Assembly (NCBI GenBank): GCA_028873845.1
Contig: JAPPNO010000044.1
Coordinates: 1 to 55,651 of the forward strand
Direction of reading: 5' to 3'
Source: Gemmatimonadota bacterium
GTDB lineage: Bacteria; Gemmatimonadota; Gemmatimonadetes; Longimicrobiales; Gaopeijiaceae
Length of the DNA: 55,651 nt
Shown in pieces: positions 46,823 through 51,799 of this stretch. A program made the translations under genes and the position numbers. Every line of letters starts with the position of its first letter. The stretch's first letter is position 1. The notes beneath the pieces are model-generated. The model ran no database searches. It worked only from the letters and a program-made list of their open reading frames with translations, and was not told where the DNA came from.

Positions 46823-49201
46823 GTGTCCGGGTGCGCCCTCCGGGTCCTCGACTTCGGGAAGGTGCTGGAGTCCGTCGCGGCCCTTGCGGCGACCCGGGGA
46901 GGAAGGGAGGCGGTGCTGGCCCTGCGGCCGTCGCCCGAGCCCGGTATCGTGCGTGACCGGCTTGCAGCGGTGGACGAGACGCGGCGGTTCCTTTCGGCTC
47001 GTGACGACTGGGTGTTCCCGAGCGTTCCGGAGGCCGGCGTCGCGATCGGCCGCCTGGGCGTGGACGGGTCCCTTCTGGCGCCGGAGGAGTTGGCCAGGCT
47101 GGGCGGCCTGCTGCGGGCTGGCGCCGCGCTCCGGGATCGGCTGGGTGGCGGGGCCGGAGAGCTGCCGACGTTGCGGGCGCTGGAGAAGCGCCTGCTCGCC
47201 GTGCCGGAGCTGGAGACCGCGATCCGCCGCACCGTCGATCCGGATGGTGCCGTCCTGGACACCGCGAGCAGGGAGCTGGCCCGCATTCGTGGCCAGCTGG
47301 CCGGTGCGCACAACCGGGTCGTGGCCCACCTGGAGAAGTTGCTGGAAGGGTTGACGGAACCGCACCGGGTCGCGGGAGCGTCCGTCACCATTCGCGAGGG
47401 GCGCTACGTGATCCCGCTGCGCCGGGAGGGTCGCCGCTCGGTGGGCGGGTACGTACACGACGAGTCGTCCTCCGGAGCGACCCTCTTCGTCGAACCGCCG
47501 TCGGCCATCGAGATGATGAACGGGGTGCGAGCGCTCGAGCGGGCCGAGGCGCGGGAGATCCGGCGGGTGTTGCGCGAACTGAGCGATCGCTGCCGTCCGT
47601 TCGCCGAAGCCATGGGCGACTCCCTGGCGGCGCTGACCGAGATGGACAGCCGGGTCGCGCTGTCCCGCGCGGCGGACAGCTGGGACGGAAGCCTTCCCGA
47701 AATCGGCGAGGGGCCGCTCTGCATTCGGAGCGGGCGCCACCCGCTGCTGGTGGCCGCGGGGTCCGGGGCGGTGCCCTTCGATCTCGACCTCGCCGCCGAC
47801 GAGGGCGTGGTGGTCGTGACCGGTCCGAACACCGGCGGCAAGACCGTCTTCCTGAGGTCGGTCGGGCTGGTGTCGGCGCTGGCCCAGTCGGGGGTGATTC
47901 CGCCGGTGGGACCCGGGACGCGATTGCCGGTCTTCGATACCTTCCTGGCCGAATCGGGCGACGGACAGTCCCTGGCCGACAGCCTGTCGACCTTTTCCGC
48001 CCACCTGCGTGGCCTGGGCACGATTCTGCAGGAGGCGGGTCCCCGGTCCCTTGTCCTCATCGACGAACCCGGCGCGGGCACCGATCCCGGGGAAGGCGAG
48101 GCCCTGGCGCGCGCCCTCGTGGAGACGCTCGCCGAACGGGGGTGCACCGCCGTGGTCACCTCGCACCTGGGCGGACTCAAGCGCCTTGCCGCGCCCGGGA
48201 ACCGCATCGTGAACGCCTCGCTGAACTTCGACGGCGAACGCCTGCGGCCCACCTACCGTTTCAGCAAGGGTCGTCCGGGACGCAGCTACGGCCTCGCGAT
48301 CGCGCGCGGCCTGGGCTTCCCGGACGAAGTGCTGGACCGGGCCGACGGCTACCGCGATACGGCCGACGCGCGAATGGACGACCTGCTGGAGACCCTTGAA
48401 CGCAAGGAAAGCCGGGTCTCGCGGATGCTGGCGGAGCTGGAGGCCGAGAAGGAACGGGCGGCTGCGCTGCGCTCGGAGATGGAGGCGCGCGAGGAGGGAC
48501 TGCGCCGTGCCGAGCGCGAGTCGGCCTCGAAAGCCCGGTCCGAGGCTCGCCGCATGCTCCTGCGCGCCCGCGCGAAGGTCGATGAGGCGATCACCGGTCT
48601 CGAGGAACGGGTGCGCGAGGGGGCCGAGCTTCGCGAAGCCTCCCGCAAGGCGCGCCGAATGGTGGAGGACGCCGTTCGGTCGCTGGAGGAGCCGGCCCCT
48701 CCTCGACCGTACGGGAGTCGGGCGCCCGGTCCGGTCGTGAAGCCGGGCGTGAAGGTTCGCATGGTGGACTCGGGTGCCCGTGGAACGGTGGTGGCCCTGG
48801 ACGGGGAGCGCGCGGTCGTGAATGTGGGGGGCGTGAGGCTGCGGGTGGGGTGGGAGTGGCTGGCCCCGGACGGCGACGGTGAGGATGAACCCCGGCAGGG
48901 AGCCGACACGCACGCCGGCGCGGGCCGCTCGGCGGGGTGGACCGCCCCCGACATCGAGCCGGCCACCGAGGTCGACCTGCGCGGACAGCGCGCCGACGAG
49001 GCGGAGGTCGCCCTCGCCCGCGCGCTGGACGCGGCCACCGTGGCCGACCTGCGCGAACTGAGGGTCATTCACGGCAAGGGGACGGGAACTCTGCGCGAAC
49101 GGGTGGCCGTGGTGCTCGGGCGCGACGCGCGCGTGGAGCGGTTCCGCGCCGGCAAGCCCGGCGAAGGCGGATTCGGGGTGACCGTGGCGAGGATCCGGTA
49201 G
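46823..49201 (+). CDS. mutS2: endonuclease MutS2
   Basis: MutS paralogue lacking mismatch-recognition domains; linked to suppression of recombination or rescue of collided ribosomes. The 792-residue protein has the core and clamp region, the ATPase with Walker A GPNTGGKT (334-341) and DEPGAGTDPGEG Walker B, a long coiled coil (about 515-620), a KOW-like patch and a C-terminal Smr domain (VDLRGQRADEAE, VIHGKGTGTLRE). The Smr HGKGTG nuclease motif is intact. GTG start. Confidence 0.95.
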   Translation: MSGCALRVLDFGKVLESVAALAATRGGREAVLALRPSPEPGIVRDRLAAVDETRRFLSARDDWVFPSVPEAGVAIGRLGVDGSLLAPEELARLGGLLRAGAALRDRLGGGAGELPTLRALEKRLLAVPELETAIRRTVDPDGAVLDTASRELARIRGQLAGAHNRVVAHLEKLLEGLTEPHRVAGASVTIREGRYVIPLRREGRRSVGGYVHDESSSGATLFVEPPSAIEMMNGVRALERAEAREIRRVLRELSDRCRPFAEAMGDSLAALTEMDSRVALSRAADSWDGSLPEIGEGPLCIRSGRHPLLVAAGSGAVPFDLDLAADEGVVVVTGPNTGGKTVFLRSVGLVSALAQSGVIPPVGPGTRLPVFDTFLAESGDGQSLADSLSTFSAHLRGLGTILQEAGPRSLVLIDEPGAGTDPGEGEALARALVETLAERGCTAVVTSHLGGLKRLAAPGNRIVNASLNFDGERLRPTYRFSKGRPGRSYGLAIARGLGFPDEVLDRADGYRDTADARMDDLLETLERKESRVSRMLAELEAEKERAAALRSEMEAREEGLRRAERESASKARSEARRMLLRARAKVDEAITGLEERVREGAELREASRKARRMVEDAVRSLEEPAPPRPYGSRAPGPVVKPGVKVRMVDSGARGTVVALDGERAVVNVGGVRLRVGWEWLAPDGDGEDEPRQGADTHAGAGRSAGWTAPDIEPATEVDLRGQRADEAEVALARALDAATVADLRELRVIHGKGTGTLRERVAVVLGRDARVERFRAGKPGEGGFGVTVARIR

Positions 49202-49217
49202 TGCCGGGGACACCGGG

Positions 49218-51032
49218 ATGATACCGGACGACGTGGTCGAAGAGGTTCGCGCCCGGGCCGACATCGTCGGGGTCATCGGCGAATTCGTCCAGCTCAAGAA
49301 GGCGGGCAGGGAGTTCCGGGGGCTCAGCCCGTTCAAGAAGGAGAAAACGCCCTCCTTCTACGTGATTCCGGCCAAGGCGTTCTTCCACGACTTCTCGTCG
49401 GGGGAATCGGGCGACGTCTTCTCCTTCCTCATGAAGCACCAGGGGATGAGCTTCGTCGACGCGGTCAAGTACGTGGGGGCGCGCAGCGGGGTGGATGTGC
49501 GCGAGGTCAGGAAGGGGCGGGGCGGGGACGATCCCTGGCGTCCCTACCACGAGGCGTCCGCGCAAGCCGATTCCTTCTTCCGGGAACGGCTGTGGGAGTG
49601 GGAGGGCGGGGAGGCCGCCCGGCGCTACCTCGAGGGCCGCGGAATCGACCGGGAGGCGGGCGAGCGCTTCGGACTCGGGTACGCGCCCGACGAGTGGGGC
49701 GCCTTCCGCGAGGCAGCGGCGGTCCACGGACTGGACGAGGGCATCCTCCTCGAGCTGGGACTCCTGAAGAAGAGCGAGAAGGGGGGCGATCCCTACGACG
49801 CCTTCCGCAACCGCGTCGTTTTCCCGATCGAATCGGTCACCGGACGCGTGCTGGCCTTCGGCGGCCGGCTCCTGGGCAGGGAGGGCAAGGGGGCGCCCAA
49901 GTACCTCAATTCGCCCGAGAGCCCGATCTTCCACAAGGGCGAGGTCCTGTATGGCCTGAGCTGGGCCCGCAACCACATACGCCGCGACGCATCGGTGATG
50001 GTGGTCGAGGGCTTCATGGACGTGGTTTCGCTGGCGGCGGTGGGCATCCGCAATGTCGTGGCGCCGCTGGGAACGTCGCTGACCGAATCGCACGCCCGGC
50101 TGTTGAAGCGGTACACGACCCAGGTACGGCTCCTGTTCGACAGCGATCCCGCCGGACTGCGCGCCACCTTTCGCGCAGCCGACACGCTGCTGGGGCAGGG
50201 ACTGCACGCGTCGGTCGTCACCCTTCCCGACGGCGAGGATCCCGATTCGGTGGCGCGCTCGGGCGGGGCCGACGCCGTGCGCGGGTTTGTGGCCCAGGCC
50301 GTCGACGTGCTGGACCGCAAGATCGCCATCCTGGAGGAGCGCGGCTACTTCGACTCGATCGAGAAGACGCGCCGCGCCCTGGATCGCCTGTTGCCGACGC
50401 TCCGGGCGGCGCGGGACGCCCGGTTGCGCGACATCTACGTGACGCGGGTGGCGGAGCGGACCGGAGTGCGGCGCGAGACGCTTGCGCAGGAGCTGTCGAC
50501 GGCTCCGGCACGCGCCGCCCGAGTGGGCAAAGCGCCGGTGCGAAGGCGCCCCGCTCCCCGGTTTCGCGGGCTCGGGGCGGAGCGAACCCTGCTGCTCCTG
50601 CTGATCAGTCACCGTGAATGGGTCGAGAAATCGGCGGAACGCGTCGGCCCTTCGGATTTGGAGGATGGCGCGAACCGTGTGATCTTCGAGGCGTTGATCG
50701 CCGATCCGGATCTCGTGGCGCTGCCGGAGGGGACGAGGCCCGAAGCCGTCGATCGCTTCGAGGAACTCAACGCCGATCCGGAGACGCTTGCTGATCCGGC
50801 CCGGGTGTTCGACGATACGGTGGCGAAAATCGAGGGCAACCGGATCAGCCGGCGACTCGACGCGATCGAAGCGGAAATCCGCGGTTCCGGAACCGGGGAA
50901 CAGCACAGATTGATCAGGGATAAGGAAGAATTGATGAAGGAAATACAGGCCTTGCCCGTCGACTGGCGCAGATCCGGCAAGGCGTTGTCAAACCTGGGAA
51001 GAACTCGACAGGGGGGAAGAGAAAGACAGTGA
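49218..51032 (+). CDS. dnaG: DNA primase DnaG with degenerate zinc-binding domain
   Basis: Makes RNA primers at the replication fork. The 604-residue protein has an N-terminal CHC2-like domain, a TOPRIM core (VVEGFMDVVSL and LLFDSDPAGLRA with acidic metal ligands) and a C-terminal helicase-interaction region. The zinc ligands are all replaced: Ser37 and Lys40 for Cys and His in GLSPFKKEKTPSF, and Asp58 and Ser61 for the two Cys in FHDFSSGESGD, while the surrounding consensus is kept. It overlaps cdsZ by 4 bp. Confidence 0.94.
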   Translation: MIPDDVVEEVRARADIVGVIGEFVQLKKAGREFRGLSPFKKEKTPSFYVIPAKAFFHDFSSGESGDVFSFLMKHQGMSFVDAVKYVGARSGVDVREVRKGRGGDDPWRPYHEASAQADSFFRERLWEWEGGEAARRYLEGRGIDREAGERFGLGYAPDEWGAFREAAAVHGLDEGILLELGLLKKSEKGGDPYDAFRNRVVFPIESVTGRVLAFGGRLLGREGKGAPKYLNSPESPIFHKGEVLYGLSWARNHIRRDASVMVVEGFMDVVSLAAVGIRNVVAPLGTSLTESHARLLKRYTTQVRLLFDSDPAGLRATFRAADTLLGQGLHASVVTLPDGEDPDSVARSGGADAVRGFVAQAVDVLDRKIAILEERGYFDSIEKTRRALDRLLPTLRAARDARLRDIYVTRVAERTGVRRETLAQELSTAPARAARVGKAPVRRRPAPRFRGLGAERTLLLLLISHREWVEKSAERVGPSDLEDGANRVIFEALIADPDLVALPEGTRPEAVDRFEELNADPETLADPARVFDDTVAKIEGNRISRRLDAIEAEIRGSGTGEQHRLIRDKEELMKEIQALPVDWRRSGKALSNLGRTRQGGRERQ

Positions 51033-51799
51033 CGCTCGACAATGGCCCGATCTCCAGCCGGTTGATGGAGCTCCAGACCATGGACAGGAGGATCCGGGAG
51101 ACCCGGGACCGAATCGATTCCTACGATCCGTTGCTGGAGAAGGTGGAAGCACCCGCCCTTCGTCTGGCCGAGGATGTCGGCGTGACCGAAAACCGGGTGC
51201 GGGACCTGCGGCTCGAGGAGCGGCGGCTGCGGCTCGCGGCCGAGGAGAAGCGTGCCCGCGTACACCGGCTGGAGGACCGGCTGAATCTGGTGAGGACCGT
51301 TCGCGAGGAGGCGGCCGTGCAGGCGGAACTGGGGCTGTTGCGGCGGGCCCTGGACCAGGAGGAACAGGAGGTCGTGAACCTGCTGGACCAGATCTCCAGG
51401 TTCGAGGAACGCCTTGAGAACCAGCGGTCGGAGATGGAGGAGGCGCGCTCTGCAGTCGGCCCCCGCCGGGACGAACTGCTGGCCGAGCGGGAGCTGGCAC
51501 TGGCCGAGGCCGCGTCGCTGGAGGCGCGGCGCGAGGAGTTCGCGGCCGCGATCGACCCGAGGTACCTGCGCGCATACGACCATCTGGCGCAGGGAGGACG
51601 CCGGGTGGCGGTCGCCCCGATGACCGAGGACGGCGCGTGCGGCGCGTGCTTTTCGGTGATTCCGCTGCAGTTGCAGAACGAGGTCCGCACCCGCGCACCG
51701 CTGATCCGGTGCGAGGCGTGCGGCGTCATCGTGACCGCTCCGGCGGCGGCCCCCGAGCCGGAGTCGCCGTCGCTCCGCGGGGCCGACGTCCCCGCGTGA
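51029..51799 (+). CDS. coiled-coil C4-type zinc ribbon protein (CdsZ-like)
   Basis: A 256-residue protein with a long N-terminal coiled coil (about 5-185) and a C-terminal zinc ribbon CGAC / CEAC. The architecture matches the CdsZ/YbgI-neighbour zinc-ribbon family, of uncertain function in most bacteria. The C-terminal tail is Ala/Pro-rich. GTG 51029 overlaps dnaG by 4 bp, suggesting coupling. No enzymatic motif. Confidence 0.8.
   Translation: MTLDNGPISSRLMELQTMDRRIRETRDRIDSYDPLLEKVEAPALRLAEDVGVTENRVRDLRLEERRLRLAAEEKRARVHRLEDRLNLVRTVREEAAVQAELGLLRRALDQEEQEVVNLLDQISRFEERLENQRSEMEEARSAVGPRRDELLAERELALAEAASLEARREEFAAAIDPRYLRAYDHLAQGGRRVAVAPMTEDGACGACFSVIPLQLQNEVRTRAPLIRCEACGVIVTAPAAAPEPESPSLRGADVPA

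Follow-up and report, generated by a model that had tools for sequence, protein, structure and literature searches.

A DnaG primase with all four zinc ligands of its N-terminal domain replaced, and ligandless counterparts in other bacterial groups

The window analyzed here, a 55,651-nucleotide stretch of a contig from a Gemmatimonadota bacterium, carries a single dnaG gene on the forward strand (49218..51032), which encodes a DNA primase of 604 residues that contains no cysteine. It is preceded by mutS2 (46823..49201, forward strand), whose product has the MutS_V and Smr domains in Pfam, and directly followed by a gene for a C4-type zinc ribbon protein (PF02591/DUF164 in Pfam; 51029..51799, forward strand) that retains all four of its cysteines in both CxxC pairs. 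The dnaG frame scores 400.4 bits against the DnaG model TIGR01391, above the curated cut-off of 283.6, and its Pfam domains are Zn_ribbon_DnaG, DNAG_N, Toprim and DnaB_bind, the last three standing in the expected order. The catalytic core (DNAG_N and Toprim) and the DnaB-binding match cover residues 120-419 (49575..50474, forward strand; Pfam), and E264, D308 and D310 of this protein, which we take to be the acidic residues of the Toprim domain (Glu and DxD), are invariant across 50 aligned rows. Residues 1-95 (49218..49502, forward strand) make up a zinc-ribbon-like domain with replaced ligands, delimited by a PF01807 match (94.6 bits over residues 3-95; cut-off 24.9) and an AlphaFold2 model. 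To judge from its sequence, the protein is an ordinary replicative DnaG whose CHC2 domain is a ligandless variant.

A sequence-only reading of this DNA had reported that the Cys, His, Cys and Cys of the CHC2 finger are replaced by Ser37, Lys40, Asp58 and Ser61 and that the flanking EKTPSF and GD residues are kept, and both observations, with their coordinates, are correct. The codons are AGC at 49326, AAG at 49335, GAC at 49389 and TCG at 49398. The first knuckle reads S37-P-F-K40 for C-P-F-H (49326..49337, forward strand) and the second D58-F-S60-S61 for C-F-G-C (49389..49400, forward strand), the glycine before the last ligand having also become serine (S60, 49395). EKTPSF is retained, as is GESGD after the second knuckle, and the only histidines among the first 105 residues are His57 and His74. 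A profile alignment of the window domain and 70 ligandless relatives against the solved zinc domain 1d0q has no gaps. Compared with the known zinc domain of bacterial DnaG (PF01807; 1D0Q from B. stearothermophilus and 2AU3 from Aquifex), the window domain has the same length and predicted fold, the common EKTPSF / GD frame and 52% identity to 1d0q_A in a structural alignment, whereas the known domain has four zinc ligands and that of the window has none. Titles and abstract openings of the open-licence literature yielded no report of a ligandless DnaG, although we do not claim that the form is unpublished.

The residues S, K, D and S occupy the ligand positions in all 22 genomes of the window genus (g1) that were read (19 of 19 from a first set plus L156, L158 and L167, with G394 left out), which excludes a sequencing error. 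That the gene is an assembly error or a pseudogene, or that a zinc-bearing primase is hidden elsewhere, could be argued from the state of the window genome, which is in 137 contigs and 96.5% complete, but two of the 22 genomes with identical residues are single contigs (G001, G046), the 604-residue frame is intact, and exactly one dnaG above the curated cut-off was found in each of nine ligandless genomes checked (six of g1 and one from each sister genus; G398 is only 77% complete). In one genome, G086, an additional match of 29.1 bits falls below the dnaG cut-off and covers the Toprim part only. The window genome itself has one PF01807 match and one dnaG-family match above cut-off, and a second zinc-bearing dnaG, one of two findings that the sequence-only reading had named as fatal to its proposal, was searched for in this 96.5% complete assembly and not found. 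We therefore give an artefact or a concealed second primase a negligible chance.

The survey of DnaG across the phylum that had been suggested covered 298 genomes, and the Asp58 form was matched in 20 of them (18 of 18 g1 genomes, one of g17 and one of g27) by a pattern that is blind to ligandless forms without Asp58. Within the family, the CHC2 domain (PF01807) was present in 87 of 96 genomes. Seventy family loci were read, in sets of 30 and 40; 66 have CHCC, three have SKDS (g17, g27 and g142), and one has CHCA, the last being a second copy of 290 residues in G255. Among these 70 there was no dnaG with only some of its ligands exchanged. Other families of the same order keep all four ligands in five f2 and six f3 genomes, one f2 genome having given no match in the domain search. 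The loss of the ligands most likely dates to the ancestor of four related genera (g1, g17, g27 and g142).

We refer to proteins with S37, D58 (or C58), S60 and S/T/A61 as the ligandless SPF..DFS[S/T]G form, a grouping coined here to which the window DnaG belongs. A pattern scan of named genomes returned at least 119 stretches, and among the matches listed Asp58 occurs in 119 of 119 and Ser37 in 118 of 119. The scan gives names and not frequencies, and at positions 37 and 58 its pattern could not match Cys, Gly, Arg, Trp or AGY-encoded Ser; since it permitted many other residues, the constancy of Ser37 and Asp58 is informative. By title, the matches listed belong mostly to Alphaproteobacteria (many of them Bradyrhizobium) and Bacteroidota; two each come from Gammaproteobacteria (Nevskia and Polycyclovorans) and Chloroflexota (L103, L119). 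Also listed are MAGs of Calditrichota and of Clostridia, one each, and one MAG that carries the label Sebaldella. Of the listed stretches, at least five are not the main dnaG (L065, L075, L101, L117, L144). When 28 such genomes were searched whole, the ligandless domain was the sole PF01807 match in 20 and one of several in eight, and among the extra copies read a full-length CHCC DnaG was found only in the Clostridia and Alistipes MAGs. There, ligandless CHC2 proteins of 334-335 residues (L065, L075), perhaps mobile, accompany the CHCC dnaG. In a Flavobacterium and a Winogradskyella genome the DnaG itself, whose frame has roughly 660 residues, is ligandless, and each genome encodes a further ligandless protein with the CHC2 domain in a frame of roughly 1070 residues (L117, L144; also L268, L269).

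Zinc and ligandless forms both live in Alphaproteobacteria, since the domain was found in 184 of 190 genomes there and the 30 best-scoring loci, when read, were all CHCC. The 30 best-scoring Bacteroidota loci were likewise all CHCC, and 112 of 296 Bacteroidota genomes matched a pattern for Phe-Ser/Thr-type residues at positions 59-61. By a count made by eye on stretches that do not reach residue 37, these 112 comprise 41 with Asp58, 69 with Cys58 and no His40, and two of zinc type with Ser60, so that a ligandless-type DnaG occurs in about one-third of the sampled Bacteroidota genomes, many keeping one Cys. The two of zinc type (G947:C1:513484-513557 and G939:C1:33183-33256) keep His40, Cys58 and Cys61 with Ser at 60 (CFSCG), indicating that Ser can replace Gly60 in a protein that retains zinc ligands. 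Among 36 low-scoring Bacteroidota loci, 12 are CHCC, 13 are ligandless with Asp58 (two of these keep His40) and 11 are ligandless with Cys58, all 24 ligandless loci having Ser37. The eleven Cys58 DnaG (CFS[S/T]G; L384, L385, L387, L390, L391, L393, L400-L403 and L408), which have exchanged the other three ligands, possibly represent an intermediate state. In Chloroflexota, 20 low-scoring loci comprise 18 CHCC and two ligandless, and the 30 best-scoring are CHCC. The form also extends to viral contigs, where 80 of 157 relatives were kept (L417-L496); all have Asp58 or Cys58, and Ser37 is present in 80 of 80, a residue that one of the two patterns used required. Proviruses may be among these contigs. 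Ligandless forms vary at position 57 (His, Phe or Lys), and position 40 is constantly Lys in the window clade and varied elsewhere.

The distribution raises the question of whether the ligandless form spread between lineages or arose in each. The window string SPF..E.TPSF..HDFSSG nearly equals that of Alphaproteobacteria, as would be expected had an alphaproteobacterium or a different ligandless lineage donated the gene or its N-terminal domain, but both parts of the protein nest within the window's own phylum. On a tree of the core (residues 108-425, 93 rows, quick method), the nine ligandless rows from the own phylum group together (support 99) within a clade of 40 rows of that phylum (99), three ligandless Chloroflexota rows (100) fall inside Chloroflexota, and the ligandless rows of Alphaproteobacteria and of Bacteroidota are each found among zinc-bearing rows of the same group; two gammaproteobacterial rows adjoin the Alphaproteobacteria and the Calditrichota row adjoins the Bacteroidota, neither having zinc-bearing kin in the set. 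This tree requires at least 10 changes of zinc/ligandless state. A tree of the N-terminal domain with columns 37, 40, 58, 60 and 61 masked, which has 100 columns only, places the same nine rows together (100/97) within 39 own-phylum rows (99/98) and requires eight changes of state; L229, an own-phylum row with zinc ligands, falls with Chloroflexota instead. In AU tests, whose groups were picked after the trees had been seen, a single clade of own-phylum and alphaproteobacterial ligandless rows was rejected (p 0.0004), as was one with Bacteroidota (p 0.0072), weakly one with Chloroflexota (p 0.0285), and one of all 36 ligandless rows (p 1e-50). Horizontal transfer and a swap of the N-terminal domain are rejected by both trees and these tests, and we consider acquisition from a ligandless donor very improbable. 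We also set aside gene conversion of a short tract across the knuckles, since the sequence between and beyond them (V-P-A-K, ESGDVF) is mostly of the own type, which also speaks against transfer at large.

When ligandless rows were compared with zinc rows in four groups (own phylum, Alphaproteobacteria, Bacteroidota and Chloroflexota; enrichment at least 0.4), only 37, 58, 60 and 61 of the 604 positions gained the same residue in all four, the own phylum counting as distinct on the strength of the trees. The shared exchange turns Cys37 into Ser, Cys58 into Asp, Gly60 into Ser and Cys61 into Ser/Thr, with the His position free. The sequence-only reading had suggested convergence with Alphaproteobacteria, and the core tree, the N-domain tree and the AU test (p 0.0004) agree with it. 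Convergent evolution of the ligandless domain, by exchange of side chains in place and without transfer, is thus supported by the sequence comparisons. The ligandless DnaG of Alphaproteobacteria, Bacteroidota and Chloroflexota share the replacements at 37, 58, 60 and 61 with the window protein and are separate from its clade on both trees; they differ from it in position 40, where other residues replace the constant Lys, and many in Bacteroidota in keeping Cys58. One CHCC Bacteroidota DnaG (L414) lies in a ligandless clade on both trees, so that repeated loss or regain of zinc ligands must be allowed for.

Loss of all four ligands might suggest that the domain is a degenerate relic without a role and that the primase works without a recognition finger. 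The N-terminal domain is, however, under strong purifying selection, stronger than that on the core, with a median dN/dS among 16 genomes of the genus of 0.068 (120 pairs) versus 0.135 in the core (105 pairs, 15 of 120 having been dropped for position-by-position identity below 70%, presumably owing to a gap), values that are rough because about half of the synonymous sites differ. The replacing residues are constant within the clade and identical in other groups, and the predicted fold is intact. A template-free AlphaFold2 model from the window sequence and 70 ligandless relatives has pLDDT block means of 95-97 across residues 11-80, and Foldseek returned 1d0q_A as its top hit (rmsd 0.9 Å, TM 0.84/0.87), followed by 2au3. 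The structure prediction that the sequence-only reading had called for therefore retains the zinc-ribbon fold, 0.9 Å from 1d0q_A. AlphaFold2 tends to return the family fold with or without metal, and such a prediction cannot show the absence of metal. We regard a relic as most improbable, and the window DnaG probably folds and works without zinc, as its sequence and the model suggest.

In a zinc ribbon the two knuckles are pinned by the metal, and Asp can cap turns. We infer that the window domain holds no metal and that both knuckles are kept where zinc would place them, most likely by a network of hydrogen bonds and turn caps made by Ser37, Asp58, Ser60 and Ser61. Asp58 would accept hydrogen bonds from the turn at 59-61 and from Ser37, pinning the knuckles metal-free, and the ribbon would thereby keep its fold and its job, which we presume is to sample the single-stranded template and contact the polymerase domain. 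Position 40 would lie outside any shared network, since the residue there differs between lineages. The sequence-only reading had suggested a metal-free primer-recognition domain; "primer-recognition" was loosely chosen, because the N-terminal domain of known DnaG recognizes template sequence (PMC6163395). The same solution would have arisen separately in the other groups. We infer further that the change of Cys58 to Asp may have come last, Cys58 still being present in some Bacteroidota and viral proteins, although on both trees L390, a row with Cys58, clusters with Asp58 rows. The selective cause may have been independence of the zinc supply or escape from the oxidation of thiols.

The main competitor to a metal-free network is continued binding of a divalent metal by Asp58, Glu42 and their neighbours, though not of zinc by Cys/His. 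In principle E42 and D58, together with acidic residues close by, could coordinate another divalent ion, and E42 and D58 are invariant in the 71-row ligandless alignment, where E42 was required by the underlying search pattern and D58 was not. Nevertheless, the Asp is absent from the Cys58 forms of Bacteroidota, position 57 varies (His, Phe or Lys), and E42 is common in zinc forms too, and we judge metal binding of this kind to be unlikely. As for zinc bound through other residues, the second finding that the sequence-only reading had named as fatal, the window protein has no Cys to offer, and His at position 57 is not constant among ligandless forms. Our favoured reading, to which we attach good though far from full confidence, is a working, zinc-independent template-recognition domain that would be held by a Ser/Asp network and that evolved convergently.

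A related exchange has been described outside primases. In Flavobacteria, the DUF164/FlgZ protein (PF02591) is described with SXXS-X20-DXXS in place of its two CXXC pairs (PMC3372290), with Ser in the first knuckle and Asp then Ser in the second, an exchange of the DnaG kind. DUF164 is a zinc-ribbon family different from that of DnaG, and the window's own member keeps its cysteines; the flavobacterial case speaks for a physical solution of general use rather than one peculiar to primase. We put forward tentatively, as a proposal slightly more apt to fail than to hold, that a recurrent code demetallates zinc ribbons (first-knuckle Cys to Ser, C-x-G-C to D-x-S-S/T), that it was reached separately in the DnaG of at least four groups, occurs in primases of viral contigs and has a counterpart in DUF164, and that lineages thereby uncouple the start of replication from zinc and from thiol oxidation. 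If this is true, the same four exchanges would make a zinc protein metal-free. Whole lineages, including about one-third of the sampled Bacteroidota genomes, lack most or all of the DnaG zinc ligands, which bears on drugs or stresses that act through the zinc site of DnaG, and natural zinc and zinc-free sister enzymes would make the role of that site directly testable. That the organism has lost its zinc ribbons more widely is unsupported in the window, where DnaJ keeps its four CxxCxGxG motifs and the DUF164 protein its four Cys.
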